NCBI RefSeq assembly: GCF_007483665.1
Contig: NZ_VIQO01000040.1
Span: forward strand, 1 to 64,000
Direction: 5' to 3'
Length of the DNA stretch: 64,000 nucleotides
DNA from: Catellatospora sichuanensis
Lineage (GTDB): Bacteria; Actinomycetota; Actinomycetes; Mycobacteriales; Micromonosporaceae
Shown: positions 27,081 through 43,262 of the stretch, in pieces
Position numbering within the stretch: the first letter of the stretch is position 1
Layout: each line of letters opens with the position of its first letter
Translations under genes and position numbers: made by a program
The notes under the pieces: generated by a model
Told to the model about the DNA's origin: nothing
The model's database searches: none
Seen by the model: only the letters and a program-made list of their open reading frames with translations

Positions 27081-30000
27081 ATGCGAAAGCCACCACGCCT
27101 GCTCGTCGCCACGATCGCCGTCCTCGCCGCGACGTCCGCGGTCGCCGTCGCCTCGCCCGGCAGCGCCGGCGCACTGGTCGCAGCGTTGCCGCCGCCGACG
27201 GGCACCACGGTGACGCTGGTCACCGGTGACCGCGTCACCATCTCCGGCACCGGCGCGAACCTGCAGGTCGACACGGTCACCCCGGCCCGGGGCCGGGAGA
27301 ACATGGTCTTCGCGCGGGTGCGCCTGGAAGGCCACGAGTACGTCTATCCCGCCGATGCGGCCAGCCTGGTCCAGTCAGGACGCGTCGACCGCCGGCTGTT
27401 CGACGTGACCGGCCTCGTCAGCGCAGGCTACGACGACACACGCACCGGCCGGCTGCCAGTGCTCATCGACCGCGCCCCCGGTGCCGCGCGGACGGCCGCA
27501 CCTGAGGGCGCGCGCACCACCAGGACGCTCGACCGGCTCGGCATGAACGCCCTCGATGTCGACAAAGCACAGGCCGCCGGTGTATGGCAGCACCTCACCG
27601 GTGCCCAGGGACCGGGCGGCGCCTTCGGCCGGACCACCCTGGCCAGGGGCATCGACCGGGTGACCCTCGACGGGCGGGTGCAGGCCAGCCTCGACGAGAG
27701 CGTGCCGCAGATCGGCGCCGACAAGGCACACCGCGCGGGCCTGACCGGCACGGGAGTCACCGTCGCCGTCCTGGACACCGGCTACGACGTCGAGCATCCC
27801 GACTTCGCCGGTGTCGTCACCGGCGGCATGGACTTCACCGAAGAGGGCACCGTCGACGACGGCAACGGACACGGCACCCACGTCGCATCCATCATCGCCG
27901 GCACCGGCGCCGCCTCCTCGGGCCGGTACGCCGGGGTGGCACCCGGCGCGAAGCTGCTGGTCGGCAAGGTCCTCAACCGCTGGGGCAACGGCAGCGAGAG
28001 CCAGGTGCTGGCAGGCATGGAATGGGCAGCCGCCTCCGGCGCCCGCGTGGTCAACATGAGCCTCGGCTCGTCGCTTGCCACCGACGGCACCGACCCGCTG
28101 TCGCTGGCACTCAACGAGCTGACCCGAACCACCGGCACCCTGTTCGTGGTCGCCGCCGGCAACTCCGGCGCCTACCAGACCATCGACTCGCCCGGAGCCG
28201 CCGACGAGGCCCTGACCGTCGGCTCGGTCACCAAGACCGGTGAGATGTCCGCGTTCTCCAGCCGCGGCCCCCGCTACGGTGACTACGGCATCAAGCCCGA
28301 CGTGGTCGCACCGGGCAGCGACATCGTCGCCGCCCGCGCCGCCGGGGCGTTCCCGTCCCTGGCGGTCTCCGAACGCTATGCCCGCCTGTCCGGCACGTCG
28401 ATGGCCACCCCGCACGTCGCCGGGGCCGCGGCGATCCTCGCCCAGGCCCACCCCGACTGGCGGGCCGCTCAGCTGAAGGCCGCGATCACCGGCACCGCCG
28501 TGCCGGTACGCGACGCCGACGTCTACGAGCAGGGCGCGGGACGCGTCGACGTGGCCGCCGCGGTCGCCAGCACCCTGTATGCGACCCCGGCGAACCTGGG
28601 CACCACCCACCTGACCTGGCCCTACACTTCGCAGCAGCCGCAGATCCGGACGTTGACCTACCGCAACTCCGGCACGTCGGCGGTGACGCTGCGCCTGGAC
28701 CAGCAGCTTCGCGACTTCGGCGGCGAGCGTGCACCCCACGGCATGGTCCGGCTGTCCGAGTCGCGGGTGACCGTGCCCGCCGGCGGCGAAGCAAAGGTCG
28801 ACATCACCGTCGACCCGGGCCGCAGCGCCGCAGGCAAGTTCGGCGGGTGGGTCATCGGTCACGGCCCGGGCGGGCAGGAGATCCGCACACCCCTTGCCGT
28901 CTACGCCGAGGCCGAAACGCACCTGCTCACCCTGTCCCGGGCGCCGATACCCGCCGGCAAGGACCGGTCCGGTGCGCTGACCTTCGTACAAGATGAGGCC
29001 ACGGGGTCGTCGTGGTATGTCAGCGTCGGCGACGAGCCGGTGGAACTGCCGCTGCCCGCCGGCACCTACCGGATCTTCGGCCATCGCTACGAAGACACCT
29101 TCACCGGCAGCGCCCCGAAGATCGTGCACTTCGCACACCGGCTCGTCATGGACCGCGCCCGGGCGCTCACGCCCGACGCCGGAGCGTCCAAGCCGGTGCA
29201 GCGCACCCTCGACGTCGCCGACACCCGCATGGTCGACGGCACGACCGGGATCCTGTCGCAGCCCCCCGGCGTGAGCGGCAGCGGCCTGCTCGCCCCGCTG
29301 CTCTACGGCCGCCACCAGGTCGAAGCCATCCCCAGCACCACGCAGATGCGCGGTCTCACCTTCCTCAGCACCGCCGCATGGCAGCAGCCGCTGCTGTCGG
29401 CCGTCATGCTCGGCGGCGAGCAGCTGAATCTGGAACCGAGCCTGATCAGCCCGGATGAGTTTCGGGGCGAGGTCACCGGCGACGTCGTCGACGTCGGCTG
29501 GGGTGCACCGGAGGACGTGGCGGGCATGGACCTGGCAGGCCGGGTCGTGCTGTTCACCCCCGGCTGGGGGTTGCCGTTCGACCAGCACCAGGTGCGCCTG
29601 GATACGATCATGGCCAAGGGGCCCGCTGCCGTGCTGCTCAGCGACGGCTGGGCCTACGGCGGGCAGGCGCCCCTGCTGATGGTGCAGACCTGGGCGGTCC
29701 AGGCACTGCGAGAGCAGCTGTCCGCAGGGCCCGTACAGGTCAGGGTTCGTGGAATCCGGGCGTCGTCGGACGTCTACTACGTGGCGCACACGGTCGACGG
29801 TCGTGTGCCGGACGGAGCGAGCTGGCATGACCGCGCCGGCGACCTGGCGTCGGTAACGACGCGGGTGGCCACGCCGGGACTCAATGATCGGCTGCGCCGG
29901 ATGGCAGCGATCGCTTACCAGGGCGGCCAGCCGCTGCCCGCGGCCGGCGCGACGATCCGCCTGCCGCAGGAGCTGACCGTGCACTACACCCCGGGCGTGG

Positions 30001-31827: not shown

Positions 31828-32325
31828 TTAGGCGGTAGGGATGCCTCGTTCCTGGCGGCTCTTGGCGACGCGGTGCTCTGCCACCTGGCGTGCTTTGTCG
31901 GCGTCGCCGATGACGGCGCCCAGGATGTCGGCGAGGCCGTTGACGCGGCCCGATGCGCCCCAGTGGCCTTCGGGGATCTCCAGCGGGAAGACCCAGACCC
32001 GGCTGTGGGCGTTCTCGTCGCCGGAACCCTCGGCGCGCACGATGGCTTCGGTGACCTCGGAGACGAGCTGCTGCTTCTTGGCTGCGCCGTTCAGCTGCCC
32101 CTCCGGCACCCCGGCGATGACCCGGTAGTGCGGCTTGTCCGGGGTGGCACCGCCGACGAAGACCTCAGGCCGGTGCAGGAAGACCCAGGAGATCTGGCGG
32201 ACGAAGGCGTTGGACGGGTCGGCGCCCTCGGCGCGCAGCAGGATCGAGGTCAGCTCGTCCATCAGGGTGCGCTCGGTGTCCGGGTCGATGGCGCCGGCGG
32301 GAATGTAGACGTCGAGCATGGGCAT
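31828..32325 (-). CDS. Tautomerase-superfamily protein
   Basis: 165 residues from ATG 32325, with GAGGAG in place. Removal of Met exposes Pro1 (MPMLDVYIPAGAI), the catalytic base of 4-oxalocrotonate tautomerase-type enzymes. The chain is about twice the length of 4-OT, with a second unit from about residue 68 (HYRVIAGVPEGQLNGAAKKQ, SEVTEAIVRAEGS), like the fused tautomerases of the MSAD/cis-CaaD group. It follows the TetR gene by 73 nt and is probably repressed by it. The substrate is unknown; such enzymes act on 2-oxo acids or unsaturated and halogenated acids. Confidence 0.85.
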   Translation of the reverse strand: MPMLDVYIPAGAIDPDTERTLMDELTSILLRAEGADPSNAFVRQISWVFLHRPEVFVGGATPDKPHYRVIAGVPEGQLNGAAKKQQLVSEVTEAIVRAEGSGDENAHSRVWVFPLEIPEGHWGASGRVNGLADILGAVIGDADKARQVAEHRVAKSRQERGIPTA

Positions 32326-32398
32326 GAGATCTCCTCAGGGTGGGATGTGAAACGGTCCGCCGCAGCGGTGATGGGTGTCTTGCGGAGGCGAGGCCGGG

Positions 32399-32959
32399 TC
32401 AGAGCAGCGCGGTCAGCTCGGCGACGACGTCGTCCAGCGGTGCGGTGCTGCGCTGTGCCCGGGCCAGGATCACCGCGCCCTCGACGGCGGCGACGGTGAG
32501 CGTGGCCAGCGTGGCGGCCCGCTGCGGCGGGACGCCGTGCGTGATCAGCAGGTCGCGGTACTGCTCCTGCCAGCCGGTGAACACCTCACGGGCGATCTCG
32601 GCGGCGGCCGGGATCTGGTCGCCGCCGACGGTCAGCGCGACGATCGGGCAGCCCGAGCGGTAGTCGCCCGCGATCAGCAACGAGCCGTAGAACTCGGCCA
32701 ATGCCGCCAGTGCCTGTCGCGGGTGCACCAGTCCGTCGTCGTGCCGGAGGAACGCCGACATGCGCTCGCCGGCAGCCCGGGCCGCGGCGGTGATCAGCTC
32801 TTCCCGGCCGCCCGGGAAGTGGTGGTACACCGACCCTCGCGGCGCGCCACTGTCGGCGAGCACGCCGTCGATCGTGGTACCTGCCGCACCGCGGGTGGCC
32901 AACAGTTTCACCGCGCTGTTGATCATGCGTTCGCGACTGCTGCCCTTGTCCCGGACCAT
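32399..32959 (-). CDS. TetR-family regulator (LmrA/YxaF-like)
   Basis: 186 residues. The N-terminal HTH is RERMINSAVKLLATRGAAGT with DSGAPRGSVYHHFPGGREEL, the pattern of the LmrA/YxaF subgroup (GAPRGSLYHHFPGGKEEL). The C-terminal part is the ligand-binding helical domain (YRSGCPIVALTVGG; VAAVEGAVILARAQR). A perfect palindrome at 32990-33005 lies 31 nt upstream of the start and should be its operator. The downstream tautomerase gene is the likely target, giving a two-gene self-regulated unit. Confidence 0.9.
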   Translation of the reverse strand: MVRDKGSSRERMINSAVKLLATRGAAGTTIDGVLADSGAPRGSVYHHFPGGREELITAAARAAGERMSAFLRHDDGLVHPRQALAALAEFYGSLLIAGDYRSGCPIVALTVGGDQIPAAAEIAREVFTGWQEQYRDLLITHGVPPQRAATLATLTVAAVEGAVILARAQRSTAPLDDVVAELTALL

Positions 32960-33005: not shown

Positions 33006-33182
33006 TTCGTTCGCAAGGTCTGATCCGGCGGGGTGTGCGGCCGAGCTGGGAACTCGACGGGCCCGTCCGATCCGCCGCTCACCCGGTGATGCGGCCCAGG
33101 GGGCGCCGCGCCTCGGGCCGGCCGCGACGCGAGGTCTTTTCTTCGGTTCCTGGCGTCGGGGGCTTGCCTCGGCCATCCGCGA

Positions 33183-33247
33183 TAACAATACTCACGGTAA
33201 CGTAATGGCTGTCTCGGAGATCACACCGGGAGAGCGCTGTCGTCACC
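33183..33247 (+). promoter_or_regulatory. Shared leader element, copy 1 (before GMC oxidase)
   Basis: TAACAATACTC (33183-33193), GTAACG (33197-33202), GGAGATCACA (33216-33225) and CGTCACC (33241-33247) recur in the same order and spacing at 37946-38008. It starts 187 nt upstream of the oxidase start codon. Probably a common promoter/operator. Confidence 0.65.
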
Positions 33248-33369
33248 GATCTTGATCCGCTCTCGAAGCGGAAGGCGGCGATGACGGCACACAGCCGGGC
33301 ACGAGGCGCTTGTTCAACCGGACGGGTGCCGACCACGGTTTTGACCCTTTCGCGGAAGGTTCACCCCTC

Positions 33370-35076
33370 ATGACCACCCTCGATTACGACGTGCTCGTCA
33401 TCGGCTCCGGCTTCGGCGGGGCAGTCTCGGCCCTGCGGCTGACGGAGAAGAACTACCGGGTCGGTGTGCTCGAAGCCGGCCGGCGCTACGCCAGCGAGGA
33501 ACTGCCCAAGACCTCCTGGGACGCGAGCAGGTTCGTCTGGGCACCCGCGCTGGGCCTGTACGGCATCCAGCGGATCCACCTGCTCAAAGACGTCGTCATC
33601 CTGGGTGGCGCGGGCGTCGGCGGGGGATCGCTGAACTACGCCAACACGCTGTACCAGCCGCCCGCGCCGTTCTTCGCAGACCCGCAGTGGGCCGCCATCA
33701 CCGACTGGCGTGAAGAGCTCGAGCCGCACTACGACCAGGCCCGGCGCATGCTCGGCGTCACCATGAACCCCACCGTCACCGCAGCCGACAAGGTCCTGCG
33801 GTCGGTCGCCGACGACATGGGCGTCGGCCACACGTTCACGGCGACGCCGGTGGGCGTGGTCTTCGGCAGCGAGGGCCAGAAGCGCGGCACCGAGATCGAC
33901 GACCCGTTCTTCGGCGGCGCCGGGCCCAGGCGCAACACCTGCATCGAGTGCGGCTCCTGCATGACGGGCTGCCGGTACAACGCCAAGAACACCCTGGACA
34001 AGAACTACCTGTACCTGGCGGAGCAGAGCGGCTGCGAGATCCACCCGATGACCACGGTCGTGGACGTGAAGCCGCTGCCGGGCGGCGGGTACACCGTGCA
34101 CACCGTGACGACGGGCAAGTCGGCCTGGCGCCGGCGCAACCGGCGTGCCTTCACCGCGGCGCAGGTCGTGTTCTCGGCGGGCACCTACAACACCCAGAAG
34201 CTGCTGCACCGGCTGCGCGACAGCGGGTCGCTGCCTAACGTCTCCGGCCGGCTCGGCCAGCTGAGCCGCACCAACTCCGAGTCCATCCTCGGCGTCAAGG
34301 CGCGGGCGAAGAACATCGCGTACACCCAGGGCGTGGCGATCACCTCGTCGATCCACATCGACGAGCACACCCACATCGAGCCGGTGCGCTACGGCAAGGG
34401 CAGCAACCTGATGGGCCTGCTGCAGACGGCGCTGACCGACGGGGACCAGGGCCACCCGCGCTGGGTCACCTGGCTCAAGACGATGCTCACCCAGCCGCGG
34501 CACTGGGGCTGGTTCCCGCCGAAGGCCTGGTCCGAGAAGACGATCATCCTGCTGGTGATGCAGGCGCTGGACAACTCCATCACCGTCCGCGGGCGCAGGA
34601 GCCTGCTGGGCCGGTACAAGCTCACCTCCGGCCCCGGGCACGGCAAGCCGAACCCGACCTGGATCCCCGCGGCCAACGACGCCGCCCGCCGGGTCGCGGC
34701 CAAGATCGACGGTATCGCCGGCGGCACCATCGGCGAGATCGCCAACATCCCGATGACGGCCCACTTCATCGGCGGCTGCCCGATCGGCGACTCGCCCGCG
34801 ACCGGCGTCGTCGACCCCTACCAGCGGCTGTTCGGGCACCCGGGCGTGCACGTCGCCGACGGCTCGACCGTGTCGGCGAACCTGGGTGTGAACCCGTCGC
34901 TGACCATCACCGCCCAGGCCGAGCGGGCCATGTCGTTCTGGCCCAACCGCGGCGAGCCCGACCCGCGGCCCGCGCTGGGTTCGGCGTACCGGCGCCTGGC
35001 CCCGGTCGCACCGGCCCGGCCTGCCGTTCCCGCCGACGCGCCTGCCGCACTGCGCCAGGCCGGCACCACGTCGTGA
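33370..35076 (+). CDS. GMC-family FAD oxidoreductase (alcohol/cholesterol oxidase-like)
   Basis: 568 residues from ATG 33370. The FAD dinucleotide fold is VLVIGSGFGGAVSALRL (GxGxxG, residues 11-17), with the GMC signature region LGGAGVGGGSLNYAN (79-92). The C-terminal block is GGCPIGDSPATGVVDPYQRL and HVADGSTVSANLGVNPSLTI, which holds the active-site Asn in GMC enzymes. Residues 191-201 read CIECGSCMTGC, a CxxCxxCxxxC motif able to hold an iron-sulfur cluster. The family includes ChoD-like sterol oxidases and long-chain alcohol oxidases. With the alkyl sulfatase next door, oxidation of fatty alcohol to aldehyde is the best reading; sterol oxidation is the alternative. Confidence 0.85.
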   Translation: MTTLDYDVLVIGSGFGGAVSALRLTEKNYRVGVLEAGRRYASEELPKTSWDASRFVWAPALGLYGIQRIHLLKDVVILGGAGVGGGSLNYANTLYQPPAPFFADPQWAAITDWREELEPHYDQARRMLGVTMNPTVTAADKVLRSVADDMGVGHTFTATPVGVVFGSEGQKRGTEIDDPFFGGAGPRRNTCIECGSCMTGCRYNAKNTLDKNYLYLAEQSGCEIHPMTTVVDVKPLPGGGYTVHTVTTGKSAWRRRNRRAFTAAQVVFSAGTYNTQKLLHRLRDSGSLPNVSGRLGQLSRTNSESILGVKARAKNIAYTQGVAITSSIHIDEHTHIEPVRYGKGSNLMGLLQTALTDGDQGHPRWVTWLKTMLTQPRHWGWFPPKAWSEKTIILLVMQALDNSITVRGRRSLLGRYKLTSGPGHGKPNPTWIPAANDAARRVAAKIDGIAGGTIGEIANIPMTAHFIGGCPIGDSPATGVVDPYQRLFGHPGVHVADGSTVSANLGVNPSLTITAQAERAMSFWPNRGEPDPRPALGSAYRRLAPVAPARPAVPADAPAALRQAGTTS

Positions 35077-35269
35077 TCCGCAGCTGGCCCGGCCTGGTGA
35101 CCCGGGCGAGTCCGGCCGCGATCCACGACACCGCGGGCCGCAGGCACGACGTGCCCGCCCGCGACCAGGCCCCGGCAGGGGCGGGCACCGACAGACGGCG
35201 ACGGCGCATTCCGGCCGATCCGATTCACAGGTCCGAGTCTTCTCGGACGCGCGCACGCGGAGGTACAGC

Positions 35270-37072
35270 ATGAACGACACACTCGACTTCGGTGACCGGA
35301 CCGATTTCGACAACGCCGACCGGGGCTTCGTGGCGGCGCTGACGCCCGGCGTCGTCACGGCCGCCGACGGGCGGGTCGTGTGGGACGCCGATGCATGGAC
35401 CTCGCTGCTGTCCGGCGACTGCCCGGACACGGCGAATCCCAGCCTGTGGCGGCAGAGCCAGTTGTGCGCCCGCCAGGGCCTGTATGAGGTCACCGAGGGC
35501 GTCTACCAGGTGCGCGGCCTGGACATCTCGAACATGACGATCGTCGAGGGCGACACCGGGATCATCGTCATCGACCCGCTGCTCAGCGTCGAGACGGCGG
35601 CGGCGGCGCTGCGCCTGTACCGCGCACACCGCGGCGACCGCGCCGTGACCGCGCTGATCTACAGCCACTCCCACGCCGACCACTTCGGCGGTGCCGCCGG
35701 GGTCACCGACGGCAGCGTCCCGATCATCGCGCCGGTCGGTTTCATGGAGCACGCCGTGGCCGAGAACGTGTACGCCGGCACGGCGATGACCCGCCGGGCG
35801 ACGTTCATGTACGGCGCCACCCTGCCGACCGGCCCGGCCGGGCAGATCGGGTTCGGGCTGGGCCTGGCCTCCTCCTCGGGTACCGTGTCGCTGTTCCCGC
35901 CCACGATCGACATCACGCACACCGGGCAGGAGGAGACCGTCGACGGCGTGCGGATCGTGTTCCAGCTGACGCCGGGCACCGAGGCGCCGTCGGAGATGAA
36001 CTTCCTGTTCCCCGACCGCCGGGCCCTGTGCATGGCCGAGAACGCCACGCACAACATGCACAACGTGCTGACCCTGCGCGGTGCGCTGGTGCGCGACGCC
36101 CGGATCTGGTCGCGGTACATCACCGAGGCGATCACCATGTTCGACGGGCAGGCCGACGTCCTGTTCGCCTCGCACCACTGGCCGACCTGGGGCCGCGAGA
36201 ACTGGGTGCGGTTCCTGTCCGAGCAGGGCGACCTGTACGCCTTCCTGCACGACCAGACGCTGCGGCTGGCCAACCAGGGCCACACCGGGTCGGAGATCGC
36301 CGAGATGATCCAGCTGCCGCCGGGGCTGGATTCGGCGTGGCATGCGCGCGGCTACTACGGGTCGGTGTCGCACAACGTCAAGGCCGTCTACCAGCGCTAC
36401 CTCGGCTGGTTCGACGGCAACCCCGTCAACCTGTGGCAGCACCCGCCCGTCGAGACGGCCAAGCGTTACGTCGACTGCTTCGGCGGCCTCGATGCCCTGC
36501 TGGCCAAGGCACGTGACTTCGTCGCCGGCGGGGACCCGCGGTTCGCCGCGCAGCTGCTGCAGCACGCCGTGTTCGCCGACCCCGACCACGGCGGTGCGAA
36601 GGAGCTGCTGGCCCAGGTGTACGAGACGCTCGGCCACGGGGCCGAGAACGGCATCTGGCGCAACTTCTACCTGACCGGTGCGCAGGAGCTGCGGCACGGC
36701 CCGAACGTCACCCCGATCGATTTGGGCGCCGGCATGGCCGCGGTGCTGTCGATCGAGCAGATCTTCGACACCCTGGCGATCCGGGTCGACGCCCCCAAGG
36801 CCTGGCACGACACCATCGTCATCGACTGGACGTTCACCGACCTGGGCCAGTCGTATCGCACGACGCTGCGCAACGGCGTGATCCTGCAGCAGCAGAACCC
36901 GCCCGCCGGGCAGCCCGACCTGAGCCTGACCCTGACCAAGCGGGACCTGCTGGGCATGCTGGGCGGCAAGGGCCCGGGCGGCGCCGCCCACGACGGTGAC
37001 CTGGGCGTCCTGGCGCGCCTGGTCGGCTACCTCGACGCGTCCGACCCGAAGTTCGCGATCGTCACGCCGTGA
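35270..37072 (+). CDS. Alkyl sulfatase, metallo-beta-lactamase fold (SdsA1/BDS1-like)
   Basis: 600 residues. The binuclear metal motif is SHSHADHFGG (His133, His135, Asp137, His138). A second cluster of acids and His follows at PGTEAPSEMNFLFPDRRALC and ENATHNMHN, as in SdsA1. The middle (YVDCFGGLDALLAKARDFV, then HGGAKELLAQVYETLGHG) matches the helical dimerisation domain, and the last ~130 residues (GMAAVLSIEQIFDTLAIRVD; LTLTKRDLLGMLGG) the SCP2-like lipid-binding domain. This is the full three-domain layout of type III alkyl sulfatases, which hydrolyse dodecyl sulfate and similar esters to alcohol plus sulfate. No signal peptide is seen, unlike secreted SdsA1, so the enzyme may act inside the cell after uptake. 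Confidence 0.92.
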   Translation: MNDTLDFGDRTDFDNADRGFVAALTPGVVTAADGRVVWDADAWTSLLSGDCPDTANPSLWRQSQLCARQGLYEVTEGVYQVRGLDISNMTIVEGDTGIIVIDPLLSVETAAAALRLYRAHRGDRAVTALIYSHSHADHFGGAAGVTDGSVPIIAPVGFMEHAVAENVYAGTAMTRRATFMYGATLPTGPAGQIGFGLGLASSSGTVSLFPPTIDITHTGQEETVDGVRIVFQLTPGTEAPSEMNFLFPDRRALCMAENATHNMHNVLTLRGALVRDARIWSRYITEAITMFDGQADVLFASHHWPTWGRENWVRFLSEQGDLYAFLHDQTLRLANQGHTGSEIAEMIQLPPGLDSAWHARGYYGSVSHNVKAVYQRYLGWFDGNPVNLWQHPPVETAKRYVDCFGGLDALLAKARDFVAGGDPRFAAQLLQHAVFADPDHGGAKELLAQVYETLGHGAENGIWRNFYLTGAQELRHGPNVTPIDLGAGMAAVLSIEQIFDTLAIRVDAPKAWHDTIVIDWTFTDLGQSYRTTLRNGVILQQQNPPAGQPDLSLTLTKRDLLGMLGGKGPGGAAHDGDLGVLARLVGYLDASDPKFAIVTP

Positions 37073-37091
37073 CGGTGACGCCTCCGGCGGG

Positions 37092-37138
37092 CTGCCGCGC
37101 CCGCCGTCGACCCCTCCGGTCGGCGGCGGGCACGGCAG
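37092..37138. terminator. Hairpin after the alkyl sulfatase gene
   Basis: CTGCCGCGCCCGCCG (37092-37106) pairs with 37124-37138 with one mismatch. It starts 20 nt after the stop codon. Confidence 0.65.
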
Positions 37139-37265
37139 CCTGCCGGACGCTCCGTCGGCGAGCCGGGGCCGCCGCGCCGCTGCCGGGGCGTGTCGCGAGT
37201 CGTCTCCGGCCGCAACGGCTCTGCTCGCCCGGGGCAACCGACGGAGCCACCCGTAGGCTTCCGAC

Positions 37266-37865
37266 ATGACCGGTGTGCGGGTGAATCGGACGCAGCGGGG
37301 GCCGGGACGGCCCCGGGAGGAGCGCGTCACCGGTGCGGTCCTGTCGGCGGTGCTGGACCTGGTGGCCGAGCAGGGCGTCAGCGCGGTGACGATGGACGCG
37401 GTGGCCGCTCGTGCCGGGGTGAGCAAGCCTGCGATCTACCGGCGCTGGCCGGGCAAGCACGACCTGTTCATCGCGGCGGCCGAGACCCGCGTCGGGGTGC
37501 TGTCCGTGCCGGATCTGGGCGACTTCCGCGCCGAGTTGCGGGCGGTGCTGGACGCGCGTGTCGAGGTCTACCGGATGCCGGGCACGGCCCGTCTGCTGGC
37601 GGGGATGGTCGTCGCGGCCGAGGAGGGCGGGGAGGTACGCGAGGCGTACCTGCGCTATGCCGCCCGGATCATGAGCGAGACCCGGAAGATCCTGGAGCGC
37701 GGGATCGCCCGTGGCGACGTACGCGCCGACGTCGACGTGCAGGCTGCGGCCACCCTGGTCGCCGCTCCGCTGATCTTCCGGTTGATGATCGAGCAGGAGC
37801 TGCCCGACGACCGCTTCGCCGCGGATCTCGCCGACATGATCGCCCGAGCGGTCGGCGCTGCCTGA
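37266..37865 (+). CDS. TetR-family transcriptional regulator of the cluster
   Basis: 199 residues from ATG 37266. The N-terminal HTH is GAVLSAVLDLVAEQGVSAVT with DAVAARAGVSKPAIYRRWPG, the standard TetR recognition helix. The C-terminal domain is AcrR-like (TetR_C with LIFRLMIEQELPDDRFAADL). It sits between the sulfatase and the transporter genes on the same strand, so it is the natural regulator of the block. The shared leader element at 33183 and 37946, with the TACTC-GAGTA inverted halves in the second copy, is the candidate operator. Confidence 0.9.
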   Translation: MTGVRVNRTQRGPGRPREERVTGAVLSAVLDLVAEQGVSAVTMDAVAARAGVSKPAIYRRWPGKHDLFIAAAETRVGVLSVPDLGDFRAELRAVLDARVEVYRMPGTARLLAGMVVAAEEGGEVREAYLRYAARIMSETRKILERGIARGDVRADVDVQAAATLVAAPLIFRLMIEQELPDDRFAADLADMIARAVGAA

Positions 37866-38210
37866 GGCTTGCTGTCCGAGTCGGCGCTCGGCTGTGGGCG
37901 CCTGTTCATTTTCTTTCCGCAGGCCCTTGCCTTGGCGACGAGTAATAACAATACTCCGAGTAACGAAAGTCGGAGTGTGGGAGGTCACAGGTGAGGGTCG
38001 TCGTCACCGGCCGGCCGTCCCTGCGCCGACGAGCCGACCGGGCGTGGCCGGCGGGTGCGGAAACCCACGGCACCTGCCGCGCCCGAGAGCGGAAAGCGGC
38101 TGACGAGAGTCTGCCCGCGCACCCGCGCGACGGCACGCAGAACACATACCCGGCCCGCTTTCTTGAACGCTGAAACCGTCCCCGAATCCTGCAGCCACCG
38201 CGGAGCAACC
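37866..38210. other. Leader region of the MFS gene
   Basis: 345 bp. It carries copy 2 of the shared leader element (37946-38008) and about 200 bp of untranslated leader. The frame is open back to 38055, but the extension is Arg/Pro-rich and has no ribosome site. Confidence 0.55.
37946..38008 (+). promoter_or_regulatory. Shared leader element, copy 2 (before MFS transporter)
   Basis: TAACAATACTC (37946-37956), GTAACG (37960-37965), GGAGGTCACA (37980-37989) and CGTCACC (38002-38008), in the order and spacing of copy 1 to within 1-3 nt. TACTC and GAGTA (37952-37962) form an inverted repeat around one base. Confidence 0.65.
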
Positions 38211-39533
38211 GTGACCGACACCGAAGTCGCACCCGCAACGCCCCCGAGTCCCTCCGGGAATGCGCCAAACAACCGCCGCCGCGCATGGATCGTCACCGCC
38301 ATGCTCGTCGCCTTCATGATGATCAACTTTGCAGACAAGTCGATCCTGGGCCTGGCCGCCGACCCGATCCGAGAAGACCTGGGCCTGTCCGCGACCCAGT
38401 TCGGCACGGCCAACAGCGCCTTCTTCCTGCTGTTCTCCATCTTCGGCGCCGTCGGCGGCCTGCTGGCCGACCGGGTGCGCCCCCGGTGGCTGCTGCTGGG
38501 CATGGTCCTGCTCTGGTCGGTGTCCCAGGCCCCGCTGGCGCTCGGCGCGGGCGTGGCCATGCTGTTCGCCTCCCGGGTCATGCTCGGCGCTGCGGAAGGC
38601 CCCGCCTTCCCCATCGCCCAGCAGACCACCCTGTCCTGGTTCCCGAACAACAAGCGCAACCTGCCCAGCGCGCTGATCACCGCCGGCACCACCTTCGGCG
38701 TCGTCATCGCCGCACCCGGCCTGACCTGGGTGATCACCGAGCACGGCTGGCGCTCCGCGTTCGGGGTGGTGGCCGTCGCCGGCGTGCTGTGGGCCCTGGT
38801 ATGGGCGTTCGTCGGCAAGGAGGGCCCGCACGCCGTCGCGACCGACCAGGACACCACCCCCGACACGGCGACCCCGGCCGACCCCGAACCGGCAGCGGGC
38901 AACGTCGGCTACCGCCGCATCCTCGCCACCCGCTCCTGGATCGGCGTCACCGCCGCCTACTTCGGCACCTACTGGATGGTCGCGCTGACCGTCGCCTGGC
39001 TGCCCTCGTACCTGCACGACGGGCTCGGCTACTCCAAGACCACCGCGGCCAACCTGGTCGCACTGCTGTGGGCCGTCAACGCCGTGGCGCTGCTCGGCCA
39101 GGCCGGGCTCACCGGATGGCTGCTGCGCCGCGGAGTCAGCAGCCGCTGGGCCCGCGCCCGGGTCGGCGGCATCACCCTGCTCGTCAGCGCAGCCGGCTGC
39201 CTGGCCCTGTCCGCCGGCCAGGGCGGCCCACTCACCGTCCTGCTGCTGATCGCCGCCTTCGGCATCTGCGGAGTGATGGCGACCATCGCGGTCACCACCG
39301 TCGCCGAGATCGCGCCCGCCGCCCGCCGCGGCGGAGCCCTGGGCATCATGAACGGCGTCGTGACCACCGCGGGCCTGATCGCACCCATCCTCGTCGGCCG
39401 CCTGGTCGACACCCAGGGCGCGGCCGGATACCAGCAAGCCGTGCTGATCTCCGCAGGCGTGCTCCTGCTCGGCGGCCTCGCCGCGGTCACCCTCGTCGAC
39501 CCGGCCCGCGACAGGCAACGCCTGGCCCAGTGA
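38211..39533 (+). CDS. MFS transporter (anion/organic-acid symporter type)
   Basis: 440 residues from GTG 38211 with CGGAG upstream. Twelve membrane helices in two halves. Helix 1 (WIVTAMLVAFMMINFADKSI) and the loop 2-3 motif (GGLLADRVRPRWLLLGMVLL) are of the kind seen in the ACS/sugar-acid group of MFS importers. The mid-loop (about 210-240) is Asp/Thr/Pro-rich. The second half has YFGTYWMVALTVAWLPSYLH and MNGVVTTAGLIAPILVG. As part of the alkyl-sulfate block it could import the sulfate ester or a carboxylate product; import rather than efflux is inferred from the family. Confidence 0.85.
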   Translation: MTDTEVAPATPPSPSGNAPNNRRRAWIVTAMLVAFMMINFADKSILGLAADPIREDLGLSATQFGTANSAFFLLFSIFGAVGGLLADRVRPRWLLLGMVLLWSVSQAPLALGAGVAMLFASRVMLGAAEGPAFPIAQQTTLSWFPNNKRNLPSALITAGTTFGVVIAAPGLTWVITEHGWRSAFGVVAVAGVLWALVWAFVGKEGPHAVATDQDTTPDTATPADPEPAAGNVGYRRILATRSWIGVTAAYFGTYWMVALTVAWLPSYLHDGLGYSKTTAANLVALLWAVNAVALLGQAGLTGWLLRRGVSSRWARARVGGITLLVSAAGCLALSAGQGGPLTVLLLIAAFGICGVMATIAVTTVAEIAPAARRGGALGIMNGVVTTAGLIAPILVGRLVDTQGAAGYQQAVLISAGVLLLGGLAAVTLVDPARDRQRLAQ

Positions 39534-39720
39534 CCCGCCGCGCCACCCGGCCGCACGCCTCCACCCGAAGCAGGCAGCGGCCGGGTGCGCCGCGCACGAC
39601 CGCCCCCCCGCCGCGATCAGCAGCGCGGCGACCGGTGCGGGCGGTCGCCCCGACCGCCCCGGCTGATCCCGGCAGCCGACGAACCGATCCACCCAGCTCG
39701 CATCCCATGGAGACCCGAAC

Positions 39721-41205
39721 ATGACCAACCTTGCCCACAACCTGGCTGCCTCAGCGACCGGCGACGGCGCCGCCCCCGCCATCCGGCTCGGCGACGCGGT
39801 GGTGTCCTACGCACAGCTCGACGCCGCCAGCGCCCGGGTCGCCGGACTGCTGCGCAACCGCGGCGTGCGGCCCGGTGACCGGGTCGGCATCATGCTGCCC
39901 AACGTGCCGCAGTTCGCCGCCGCCTACTACGGCATCCTGCGCGCCGGCGCCGTCGTGGTCCCGATGAACGTGCTGCTCAAGTCCCGCGAGGTGGCGTTCT
40001 ACCTACGCGACTCGCAGGCCAAACTGGTACTGGCCTGGCACGGCTTCGCCGCCGACGCCGTAGCCGGCGCGGCCGCCGCCGGCACCGACTGCATGCTGGT
40101 CACGCCGGGCGAGTTCGAGGCACTGCTCGGCGCCACCACACCCCAGGACGAGATCGTCGAGCGCGAGGCGGGCGACACCGCCGTCATCCTGTACACCTCG
40201 GGCACCACCGGCACGCCCAAGGGCGCCGAGCTGACCCACGCCAACCTGGCCCGCAACGCGCAGGTCGCGATCGGCCTGCTCGCGCTGACCCCCGGCGACG
40301 TCGTGCTCGGCGCGCTGCCGCTGTTCCACTCGTTCGGGCAGACCTGCGGCCTCAACGCCGCGATCGCGGGCGGGGCGTGCCTGGCACTTGTGCCGCGCTT
40401 CGACCCGCAGGCCGTGCTCGCCACGATCCACCAGCACCGCGTCACGGTCTTCGAAGGCGTGCCGACCATGTACGTCGCGCTGCTGGCCCACCCGGAGCGG
40501 GCCACGTTCGACGTGGACAGCCTGCGGCTGTGCGTGTCCGGCGGCGCGGCGCTGCCGGTCGAGGTCATGCGCGGGTTCGAGGCGGCGTTCGGCTGCGTCA
40601 TCCTCGAGGGCTACGGACTGTCGGAGACCTCGCCGATCGCGTCGTTCAACCACGCCGACCGCGAGCGCAAGGCCGGTTCGATCGGCACGCCGGTCGCCGG
40701 GGTGGAGATGGCGCTGCGTGACGTCGCCAACGGCGTCGGGGAGATCGTCATCCGGGGTCACAACATCATGAAGGGGTACTGGGGCCGTCCTGACGCGACC
40801 GCGGAGGCGATCGACGCCGACGGCTGGTTCCGTTCCGGTGACCTGGCCCGTGTCGACGACGAAGGTTTCTATTTCATCGTCGACCGCAAGAAGGACCTGA
40901 TCATCCGCGGTGGGTACAACGTGTACCCGCGCGAGGTCGAGGAACTGCTGTACGAGCACCCGGCCGTACGCGAGGCCGCCGTCATCGGCATCGCGCACCC
41001 CGAGCTGGGCGAGGAGATCTGCGCGGTGGTCGCGCTGAAAGCCGGTGCCACGGTCACCGCCGAGGAGCTGCGCGAGCACGTCAAGGCACAGGCCGCGGCG
41101 TACAAGTACCCGCGGCACGTGTGGATCGTCACCGAGCTGCCGAAGTCCCCGACCGGCAAGATCCTCAAGCGGGAGATCGAGACGCCCGCAGGGCTGACCG
41201 CCTGA
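39721..41205 (+). CDS. Long-chain acyl-CoA synthetase (FadD-like)
   Basis: 494 residues. ANL-superfamily motifs are complete: P-loop LYTSGTTGTPKG (158-168), GYGLSETSP (adenine and Thr/Glu), DGWFRSGDLARVDDEGFYFI, the hinge RKKDLIIRGGYNVYPREVEE and catalytic Lys480 in SPTGKILKREI. Length and motifs fit medium/long-chain fatty acid CoA ligases. It would activate the fatty acid released by the sulfatase/oxidase/dehydrogenase route for beta-oxidation. It starts 187 nt after the MFS gene, on the same strand. Confidence 0.92.
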   Translation: MTNLAHNLAASATGDGAAPAIRLGDAVVSYAQLDAASARVAGLLRNRGVRPGDRVGIMLPNVPQFAAAYYGILRAGAVVVPMNVLLKSREVAFYLRDSQAKLVLAWHGFAADAVAGAAAAGTDCMLVTPGEFEALLGATTPQDEIVEREAGDTAVILYTSGTTGTPKGAELTHANLARNAQVAIGLLALTPGDVVLGALPLFHSFGQTCGLNAAIAGGACLALVPRFDPQAVLATIHQHRVTVFEGVPTMYVALLAHPERATFDVDSLRLCVSGGAALPVEVMRGFEAAFGCVILEGYGLSETSPIASFNHADRERKAGSIGTPVAGVEMALRDVANGVGEIVIRGHNIMKGYWGRPDATAEAIDADGWFRSGDLARVDDEGFYFIVDRKKDLIIRGGYNVYPREVEELLYEHPAVREAAVIGIAHPELGEEICAVVALKAGATVTAEELREHVKAQAAAYKYPRHVWIVTELPKSPTGKILKREIETPAGLTA

Positions 41206-41235
41206 CACCACGCCGCCTGCGGGCGGCCCCAGGAC

Positions 41236-41274
41236 ACCGCCGCCTGCCGTCGGTCAGGAACGGCAGGCGGCGGT
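41236..41274. terminator. Hairpin between acyl-CoA ligase and aldehyde dehydrogenase genes
   Basis: Perfect 15-bp stem (ACCGCCGCCTGCCGT, 41236-41250 with 41260-41274), 9-nt loop. It suggests that the last gene of the block is expressed at a different level or from its own promoter. Confidence 0.75.
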
Positions 41275-41379
41275 TCCCCCGCCTCGAAGCAGGTCCCCGC
41301 TCCGATCCCGCACCGACGCACCTCCTATGCGGGCCGGCGGGAGCCGACCGCCCCATCGCCGAGAAGGACGTCACCGCCG

Positions 41380-43095
41380 ATGAGCCTCAGTCCCACCGTC
41401 ACCGCCCGACTCGACCAGATGATCGCCGAGCTGTCCGACGGCGAGCGCGCCTGGGCCCGAGAACCGCTGGCCTCCCGGCGTGCCCTGCTGATGCAGGTGC
41501 ACGCCAACGTCGCCGCGCACGCCGACGAATGGGTCCGCATCGCGGGCAGCATCAAGCAGCTGCCCGCCGGTTCTGCGCTGCTCGGCGAGGAGTGGACCAG
41601 CGGCCCGTGGGCGGTCCTGGAGTACGCGCCCGCGCTGGCCGAGACGTTGACCCGCCTCGAGCAGGGCCGTGACCTGCTCGACGGGTGCCGGGTCGGGACC
41701 GCGCCCGGCGGCCGCGTCACCGTCGACGTGCTGCCGTACCACGTCTACGACCGCCTGCTGCTCAGCGGTTTCAACGCCCAGGTGTGGATGGAACCCGGCG
41801 TCACCGAGCAGGAGACCCGCCAACAGGCAGGGCTGGCGCAGCGGACGCCCGAACGCACCGCGGGCGTCGCCGTGGTCATGGGCGCGGGCAACATCTTCTC
41901 GATCGCGCCGCTGGACACGCTCTACCAGCTGTACGCGTACAACCGGGTGGTCCTGCTCAAACTCAACCCGGTCACCGACCCCCTGCTGCCGGTCCTGACC
42001 GCGGTGTTCGCCCCGCTCATCGACCGCGGCTACGTACGCATCGTCACCGGCGACGCCGCCGCGGGCGACCACCTGGTCAATCATGCCGACGTGGACGCCG
42101 TGCACATCACCGGCAGCGAAGCCACCCACGACGTGATCGTCTGGGGTGCCGGTGCCGCCGGGGCCGCCGGTAAAGCCGCGGGCACCCCACGCCTGACCAA
42201 ACCGATCACCAGCGAACTCGGCGGAGTGTGCCCGACGATCGTGATGCCCGGCCGCTGGTCGAAGGCCGACCTCCGTTTCCAGGCCGAGCACATCGCCACC
42301 CAGCGACTGCACAACAGCGGCTTCAACTGCATCGCCGCCCAGGTCGTCATCGTCAGCGCGGACTGGCCGCAGAAGCAGGAGTTCTTCGCCGCACTGCGCA
42401 CGGCATTCGCGGCCGCACCCGCCCGCCCCGCCTGGTATCCAGGCTGCGACCTGCGGGTGGCCGGCGCACGGCGGACGCACCCGAGCTACGAGACCGTCGG
42501 CGGCACCGCCGAACGCACTCTGCTGTGGAACCTCGACCTCGCCGACAACGCAGAGCCGGCGTTCAACACCGAATACTTCGGACCGGTCCTCGGCGTCGCC
42601 GAGCTGCCCGGCACCGGCCTGGACTTCCTCGACGCCGCGGTCGACGCCGCCAACGAGCGGCTGCACGGCACCCTGGGCGCCAACCTGGTGATCGACCCCC
42701 GCACCCGGCGACGGCTCGGCGCGCAACTGCGCGAGCGCATCGCCCGGCTGCGCTACGGCACGATCGGAGTCAACGCCTGGACCGCCGTGGGCTACCTGGC
42801 CGCCCGCGCCACCTGGGGCGCATACCCCGGGCACACCCTCGACGACGTCCAGAGCGGCCGCGGCGTGGTGCACAACGCGCTACTGCTGCACCGCCCCGAA
42901 CGAACCGTCGTGTCCGGGCCGTTCCGGCCGCTGCCCCGCTCGATCATGACGGGAGAGTTCAGCATCATGCCCAAACCGCCATGGTTCGTCACCAACCGCA
43001 CCGCGGCCACGACCGGACGGCGGCTCGCCGGGTTCGCCGCGCGGCCCCGCTGGGCCGCCCTGATCGGCATCTTCGCCTCCGCGCTACGCGGGTGA
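41380..43095 (+). CDS. Aldehyde dehydrogenase family protein
   Basis: 571 residues, with AGAAGGA near the ATG. The ALDH core is present: Lys194 in VVLLKLNPV (cofactor), HITGSEATHD, catalytic Glu279 in KPITSELGG and the nucleophile Cys317 in HNSGFNCIAAQVV. It is longer than standard ALDH (about 490): about 70 extra residues occur in the N-terminal part and a Pro/Arg-rich tail of about 55 follows IMPKPPWFV. It resembles the long actinobacterial ALDH group. In this block it would oxidise long-chain aldehyde to fatty acid, between the GMC oxidase and the acyl-CoA ligase. Confidence 0.85.
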   Translation: MSLSPTVTARLDQMIAELSDGERAWAREPLASRRALLMQVHANVAAHADEWVRIAGSIKQLPAGSALLGEEWTSGPWAVLEYAPALAETLTRLEQGRDLLDGCRVGTAPGGRVTVDVLPYHVYDRLLLSGFNAQVWMEPGVTEQETRQQAGLAQRTPERTAGVAVVMGAGNIFSIAPLDTLYQLYAYNRVVLLKLNPVTDPLLPVLTAVFAPLIDRGYVRIVTGDAAAGDHLVNHADVDAVHITGSEATHDVIVWGAGAAGAAGKAAGTPRLTKPITSELGGVCPTIVMPGRWSKADLRFQAEHIATQRLHNSGFNCIAAQVVIVSADWPQKQEFFAALRTAFAAAPARPAWYPGCDLRVAGARRTHPSYETVGGTAERTLLWNLDLADNAEPAFNTEYFGPVLGVAELPGTGLDFLDAAVDAANERLHGTLGANLVIDPRTRRRLGAQLRERIARLRYGTIGVNAWTAVGYLAARATWGAYPGHTLDDVQSGRGVVHNALLLHRPERTVVSGPFRPLPRSIMTGEFSIMPKPPWFVTNRTAATTGRRLAGFAARPRWAALIGIFASALRG

Positions 43096-43098
43096 GGC

Positions 43099-43133
43099 GT
43101 GCCCCCGGGCCGCGCGGAGCAACCCGGGGGCAC
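43099..43133. terminator. Terminator at the end of the alkyl-sulfate block
   Basis: Perfect 11-bp stem GTGCCCCCGGG (43099-43109 with 43123-43133), 4 nt after the ALDH stop codon. Confidence 0.8.
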
Positions 43134-43262
43134 ACCCATCGCAACCGCGTCAGCGGGGAGCCAATCGCGCCCCAACCTGGCAGGCCCGACCTTCACTGAT
43201 CGATCGCCGGCAGGTCGATGCACTGACGCCGGGACCGGCGGGGCGTGTACTACGCTGCGGCC

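Follow-up and report, generated by a model that had tools for sequence, protein, structure and literature searches.

The stretch of DNA analysed here (the window) comprises positions 1 to 64,000 of contig NZ_VIQO01000040.1 of Catellatospora sichuanensis, and bears on its plus strand, between positions 33370 and 43095, a block of six genes that probably serves the use of sulfate esters of alcohols. The first gene (33370..35076) encodes a flavin-dependent oxidase of the GMC family, with the Pfam domains GMC_oxred_N/C and nearest to a cholesterol-oxidase model, for which a role in converting an alcohol into an aldehyde is proposed. It is followed by genes for a type III alkyl sulfatase with metallo-β-lactamase (MBL), dimerisation and SCP2-like domains (35270..37072); a TetR-family regulator containing a TetR_C_11 domain, the proposed repressor of the regulon (37266..37865); a transporter of the major facilitator superfamily (MFS), the proposed importer (38211..39533, within an open reading frame (ORF) that opens at 38055); a FadD-like AMP-forming acyl-CoA ligase, assigned from its Pfam domains (39721..41205); and a divergent 571-residue aldehyde dehydrogenase (ALDH; 41380..43095), in which the Pfam ALDH match covers only residues 161-345. 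Pfam returned the named family for all six proteins, and a third-position GC content of 0.90-0.96 across the six ORFs is consistent with each called frame. A preliminary reading made from the sequence alone (the sequence-only reading) had placed these six genes on one strand in this order, and the ORF and Pfam calls bear it out.

The further suggestion that the six genes form one transcription unit is not supported. A promoter-like element (TTGCCT, 17 bases, AATACT) precedes the GMC gene at 33164..33192 on the plus strand, and its -10 element is overlain by an operator-like inverted repeat, ATAACAATACTCACGGTAACG (33182..33202, plus strand). The same promoter-like arrangement (TTGCCT, 17 bases, AATACT; 37927..37955, plus strand) recurs before the MFS gene, together with a 21-base repeat like that before the GMC gene, ATAACAATACTCCGAGTAACG (37945..37965, plus strand). 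A sigma-70 scan requiring 9 of 12 matches detected no promoter; the block promoters reach 8 of 12 by hand count. Within the block, a very strong hairpin stretch on the plus strand after the sulfatase gene (37073..37200, z -7.3) may mark an end of transcription, and another strong one lies between the ligase and ALDH genes (41206..41300, plus strand, z -3.9); the stretch 3' of the GMC gene is unremarkable (z -0.7). The only terminator-like site with a T run follows the TetR gene (37883-37902), where shuffled sequence yields 2.7 such sites by chance. Because of the second promoter and operator before the MFS gene and the gaps of 174-345 bases between genes, a single operon is unlikely, and with the internal hairpins also considered it was rejected; the block probably consists of two or more transcription units under one TetR protein. 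As for the terminator said to close the block, a hairpin near 43098-43140 is real (43096..43140, not assigned to a strand; -39 kcal/mol, z -3.3), but it has no T run.

In the entire C. sichuanensis genome, the operator pattern ATAACAATACTCNNNGTAACG with up to three mismatches is found only at the two block sites and at position 28262 of a different contig, C10; the reversed control is found nowhere. The site on C10 has no mismatch and lies 151 bases upstream of the start of the match to a FabH-like β-ketoacyl-acyl carrier protein synthase III (KAS III; L135:5072-6130), which would be the third target of the TetR protein in this genome. The KAS III protein exceeds the cut-off of the FabH model TIGR00747 (353.6 against 292.1) and keeps the Cys, His and Asn motifs (GCAGF at 140, HQAN at 277 and GNTS at 307), respects in which it resembles PA3286/FabW and mycobacterial FabH. 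Its nearest structure is 1mzj, followed by a set (1m1m and others) that we take to be mycobacterial FabH. Both PA3286/FabW and mycobacterial FabH are described as KAS III enzymes that pass acyl-CoA into fatty-acid synthesis (PMC4549310).

The same pattern was sought in 16 genomes selected for carrying the TetR cluster; since the pattern was derived from those genomes' own sites, the informative part of the result is the scarcity of sites elsewhere. Twenty-five sites had at most one mismatch, 23 of them at the cluster and two at KAS III genes (genomes G000 and G100). Eight had two mismatches, of which seven were at the cluster or at KAS III and one at a sulfatase gene of genome G090; among the 13 with three mismatches, ten were elsewhere and three were the opposite strand of sites already counted. 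The total of 46 matches compares with 18 for the reversed control, all mismatch classes pooled. In 32 of 32 cluster or KAS III sites passing a promoter filter, the distance from the start of a TTG to the repeat is exactly 20 bases; the filter demanded TTG[CT] anywhere from -25 to -16, so that the fixed position, rather than the presence, of this motif is informative. (Thirty-three rows passed, and the one left out is a chance match in the window with four mismatches.) In G401, a known site has TTGA, likewise at -20, and falls outside the filter. In G334, a candidate site close to a gene resembling that of enoyl-CoA hydratase was dropped, as it has three mismatches and its TTG is not at -20. 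The repeats are candidate binding sites of the TetR protein, with whose gene they co-occur.

The KAS III link follows the regulator across genomes. Where a close KAS III gene (76% identity or more) is present, an operator-like site lies upstream of it in six of six genomes with the TetR gene and in none of four Catellatospora genomes lacking the TetR gene, a split expected by chance once in 210 (a hand count in which G118 figures once and shared ancestry is ignored). One of the latter, G572, has a KAS III 92% identical to that of the window genome and no operator. The KAS III gene lies inside the cluster, divergent from the TetR gene, in C. coxensis (G118) and in Micromonospora G640, and in C. 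coxensis only the copy beside the TetR gene has an operator.

The TetR query found matches in 11 of 354 Micromonosporaceae genomes, and all six genes occur together in nine of these 11, C. sichuanensis included. The search of other genomes for the block, which the sequence-only reading had proposed, thus finds it again (nine of 354 genomes, with its own), in two gene orders. In G640 the sulfatase gene reaches the end of the sequence stretch examined. Micromonospora chaiyaphumensis is a tenth genome with the block, and there the TetR gene is displaced by several kb and accompanied by fragments of GMC and ligase genes. These second GMC and ligase gene pieces (L282:78-464 and L216) are a sign of rearrangement. 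A scan of named genomes for the sulfatase, in which the best 80 of 230 loci were retained, gave a similar picture: five sulfatases at 86-88% identity have the partner genes, again in two orders (C. paridis, C. coxensis, M. fulviviridis, M. chaiyaphumensis and Actinoplanes regularis), and the remaining 75 of the best 80, at 67% or less, have no GMC or ALDH gene alongside, some of the stretches being under 10 kb per side. Comparison of 15 crudely called flanking genes of the window with eight other cluster loci gave no convincing homologue, only one weak match of 34%. Because the block recurs in other genomes, in two orders, and its flanks are not kept, a chance neighbourhood was rejected. Just upstream, at 31828-32959, the window has a minus-strand gene for another TetR protein (TetR_C_13_2) and a tautomerase-like gene, with no homologue in the eight other cluster loci.

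The sulfatase scores above cut-off for PF00753, PF14863 and PF14864, the three domains of type III sulfatases, and is the sole match to the dimerisation domain PF14863 in the 9.45-Mb genome. Its zinc motif, SHSHADHFGG at 132-141, conforms to the pattern [TS]HxHxDHxGG and is accompanied by E238, an AE pair with E257, and H302/303; the spacing differs from that printed for SlfS, the sulfatase of the slf operon discussed below. Six relatives of solved structure include PSdsA (4nur, the best), Pisa1, YjcS and SdsA1. At the positions of Ser233 and Phe250 of Pisa1, an enzyme for secondary alkyl sulfates, the window protein aligns Tyr and Gly, the form associated with primary alkyl sulfates; according to PMC5426288, SdsAP loses all activity on dodecyl sulfate when either of the two is changed. 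The protein thus shares with SdsA1, SdsAP and Pisa1 its domains, its zinc motif and the SdsA-type Tyr and Gly of the substrate site, and it would hydrolyse alkyl sulfates of the primary type. It differs from them in belonging to a larger regulon and in having no export signal evident at its N-terminus in a crude hydropathy check, so that the substrate would have to be brought in by an importer. The candidate is the MFS protein, which is distantly like organic-anion symporters (TIGR00893, 182.5 bits against a cut-off of 395).

The GMC oxidase retains aligned counterparts of the His and Asn of cholesterol oxidase, and both the cholesterol oxidase model and the structures of that enzyme are its nearest matches, so that it might be asked whether the block serves sulfates of sterols or other ring alcohols, with the oxidase acting on a 3-beta-hydroxysteroid freed by the sulfatase. 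We consider this very improbable, given that the protein scores 633.9 bits against model NF058674, for which the cut-off is 850; that the presence of an ALDH and a ligase fits a primary alcohol; that the sulfatase has the primary-alkyl determinants; and that a homologous GMC oxidase is found in the slf operon. The sterol marker KshA (PF19298) also has no match in the host genome, this being one marker for which the control set held no positive above cut-off. At 1e-100, the genome has one further GMC gene belonging to this subfamily.

In the ALDH, residues N171, K194, E279 and C317, presumably the catalytic Asn, Lys, Glu and Cys, are invariant in six of six aligned sequences. Complete catalytic motifs, as claimed by the sequence-only reading for every enzyme, were recovered in the sulfatase and the ALDH and, as the His and Asn, in the GMC oxidase, but the ligase is recognised by its Pfam domains only. 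AlphaFold models of the GMC oxidase and the ALDH have mean pLDDT values of 27.5 and 37.4, respectively. Homologues of the ALDH were found in 38 places, of which 28 were retrieved and the neighbours of eight read: GMC oxidases accompany three (two checked by Pfam), amine oxidases three (one checked by Pfam), and neither accompanies the other two. Such mixed neighbours fit an aldehyde acceptor served by different front ends. The unusual ALDH has an amine oxidase-like gene nearby at L166 (the one checked by Pfam), L168 and L170, which suggests that amine-derived aldehydes are handled elsewhere. On an Embleya plasmid (L315:6271-9692), relatives of the GMC oxidase (63%) and the ALDH (51%) adjoin, with no sulfatase match in the 17.6 kb examined.

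In some relatives a different enzyme takes the place of the first two of the block. The eleventh Micromonosporaceae genome with the TetR gene, Catellatospora G100, has the order TetR (87%), dioxygenase, MFS (87%) and ALDH (80%), with neither a GMC gene nor a sulfatase gene in the 20 kb examined, and a search of its whole genome for the sulfatase gave no match. In a sample of the class, the TetR protein was found at 1e-40 in seven of 394 genomes, C. sichuanensis included, and the other six, which belong to other families, all have a dioxygenase of the same family beside the TetR gene, with an MFS protein at 51-65% and an ALDH at 44-45% (in G458 the TetR and dioxygenase part and the MFS and ALDH part are on separate contigs). 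Those of families f21 and f19 are, we guess, Streptomyces and Streptosporangiaceae. An operator lies directly before the dioxygenase gene in seven of seven such loci. FastTree trees of the TetR, MFS and ALDH proteins place the dioxygenase locus of Catellatospora differently: its TetR protein groups with the other dioxygenase genomes (0.71), and its MFS and ALDH proteins fall among the sulfatase clusters, the ALDH at 0.30.

The dioxygenase matches PF02668 in both sequences scanned, and all seven have the motifs WHSDH and QHYA, the HxD...H iron site of the TauD fold. In sequence it is nearest to TauD, with AtsK and Rv3406 scoring lower; at the position of TauD Tyr73 all seven have Phe, a hydrophobic replacement as in AtsK and Rv3406. 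These two are type II sulfatases of the same superfamily, which convert alkyl sulfates to aldehyde plus sulfate in a single reaction, as reported in PMC3920027 and PMC3675115, and since this reaction is the sum of two steps, the dioxygenase could replace the sulfatase and the GMC oxidase together. The sequence-only reading had named partner genes conserved without the sulfatase, and with sterol genes, as telling against it. That case exists by half: TetR, MFS and ALDH genes do occur elsewhere without a sulfatase gene, but with one for a TauD-family dioxygenase.

Additional sulfatases are linked to the block in two species. In C. coxensis and M. chaiyaphumensis, the MBL sulfatase gene is followed in the same direction by genes for a formylglycine-generating enzyme (PF03781) and a formylglycine-type sulfatase (PF00884, with the motif CSPTR in both species); Pfam was run on both of these sulfatases and on one generating enzyme, the other being assigned by reading its sequence. 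Some relative of the formylglycine-type sulfatase occurs in ten of 17 genomes searched. No operator site precedes the two in-cluster genes, which follow other genes, nor the genes of 65-67% relatives in four other places, nor that of the 46% relative in the window genome; in G090, a congener of A. regularis, an 83% relative is encoded elsewhere behind the two-mismatch site mentioned above, with TTG at -20. A TauE/SafE permease gene adjoins a formylglycine-type sulfatase gene in G090 (L279:5485-8910), with an operator-like site between them.

The association of more than one class of sulfatase with the block in relatives raises the question of whether sulfur is what is sought, the oxidase, ALDH and ligase merely clearing away leftover alcohol and aldehyde. 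Rv3406 offers a precedent, in that it supports growth on 2-ethylhexyl sulfate as a sulfur source (PMC3675115). The ligase in the block and the KAS III gene under the same site in six genomes point instead to use of the carbon chain, and we regard sulfur scavenging as the aim as rather unlikely.

An enzyme set of this kind is already in print as the slf operon slfRCHSL of the Psychrobacter plasmid pP62BP1, described in 2012, and the TetR-controlled actinobacterial version would be a variant of it. In that paper (PMC3346939), the operon is given as encoding an AraC regulator, an ALDH, a GMC oxidase, a sulfatase and a ligase, for which the authors propose the same chain from alkyl sulfate to acyl-CoA; they also mention, as data not shown, that the host grows on dodecyl sulfate. 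Both loci thus unite an alkyl sulfatase, GMC oxidase, ALDH and ligase with a regulator, and the GMC oxidases are 38.6% and the sulfatases 42% identical. The ligases, in contrast, are only 25.7% identical; the ALDHs are of different subfamilies, that of the window having no match in the slf locus at 1e-3; the regulator is AraC rather than TetR; and the slf operon, on a gammaproteobacterial plasmid, is described in the same source as having five ORFs without a transporter gene, and a sulfatase with a signal peptide. The arrangement had seemed unfamiliar in an actinomycete. The enzyme combination is not new, but no actinobacterial counterpart of the slf operon was found among the papers listed from the literature searched, in which 'alkyl sulfatase' and 'GMC oxidoreductase' occurred together only in PMC3346939; most subscription papers lie outside that literature, and such negatives are weak evidence of novelty.

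Taken together, we consider it reasonably probable that the block belongs to a regulon that is controlled by TetR and allows the use of sulfate esters of alcohols, probably primary ones of long or medium chain. This soil actinomycete would then possess a set of proteins that probably imports detergent-like sulfated fatty chains, removes the sulfate and makes the chain usable. The MFS protein would bring the anionic ester into the cell, where the cytosolic zinc sulfatase would release alcohol and sulfate; the GMC flavoenzyme would oxidise the alcohol to the aldehyde, the ALDH would convert this to the acid, and the ligase would form the acyl-CoA. The TetR protein is predicted to occupy, at each promoter, the inverted repeat that overlies the -10 element, and to be released upon binding a compound of the pathway. 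The acyl-CoA would enter beta-oxidation and, with KAS III, might also be condensed with malonyl-ACP into fatty-acid synthesis. A single catabolic route, as first proposed, gains from the shared operator and, most of all, from the dioxygenase exchange and the extra sulfatases in two relatives, but not as a single transcription unit.

Several observations weigh against this interpretation. The cluster is patchy, the TetR gene being present in five of 11 Catellatospora genomes. Cholesterol oxidase, even if below its cut-off, is the best-scoring model for the GMC oxidase, relatives of which occur at 1e-100 in 284 of 394 genomes of the class, and the ALDH family is not specific to sulfate esters, because it is found near other GMC oxidases, amine oxidases or neither. 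The ligase gene is likewise missing from the 20 kb examined at the G100 locus, and only three of the six dioxygenase genomes from other families have a window-like ligase (50-60%) close by, the remaining three having a 31% ligase 7 kb away, a 35% ligase, or none. KAS III genes at 76-92% are present in four relatives without the TetR gene, the second copy in C. coxensis has no site, and five of the 11 cluster-bearing Micromonosporaceae lack a close KAS III, which is therefore an add-on to the regulon. Finally, all seven dioxygenases have Asn at the position of TauD His70 (counted by hand on the alignment), which we take to be the residue binding sulfonate or sulfate, so that the enzyme may not bind sulfate as AtsK does. 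This difference, with the closeness of the replacement enzyme to taurine dioxygenases and the rarity of the TetR gene, would suit an organosulfur substrate of another kind, for instance a sulfonate or a natural product bearing sulfate, which alkyl sulfates would at best imitate; type III sulfatases are not expected to act on sulfonates, and we hold such a substrate to be distinctly improbable.

The use of sulfated alcohols by a TetR-controlled regulon can also be framed more broadly, as a tentative proposal of which we are less than half persuaded: sulfate-ester salvage in which one pair of TetR and operator governs interchangeable front ends (zinc sulfatase with flavin oxidase, or an iron/2-oxoglutarate dioxygenase), in which a formylglycine sulfatase and its activator have been added in two species and a dedicated KAS III is also controlled in Catellatospora and one Micromonospora, and by which the freed chain is both catabolised and incorporated into lipids.

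In this locus the slf operon would have a parallel among actinobacteria, one that is controlled by TetR and comes with a defined candidate operator. The locus would also illustrate a natural exchange, in which front enzymes of unrelated kinds serve one regulon in an apparently identical task. For the cholesterol-oxidase-like GMC proteins, a very common family, it suggests what one branch may do. According to an old observation cited in PMC3346939, some of the carbon from dodecyl sulfate is found again in membrane lipids, and the KAS III target offers a concrete candidate for how that carbon may enter them.

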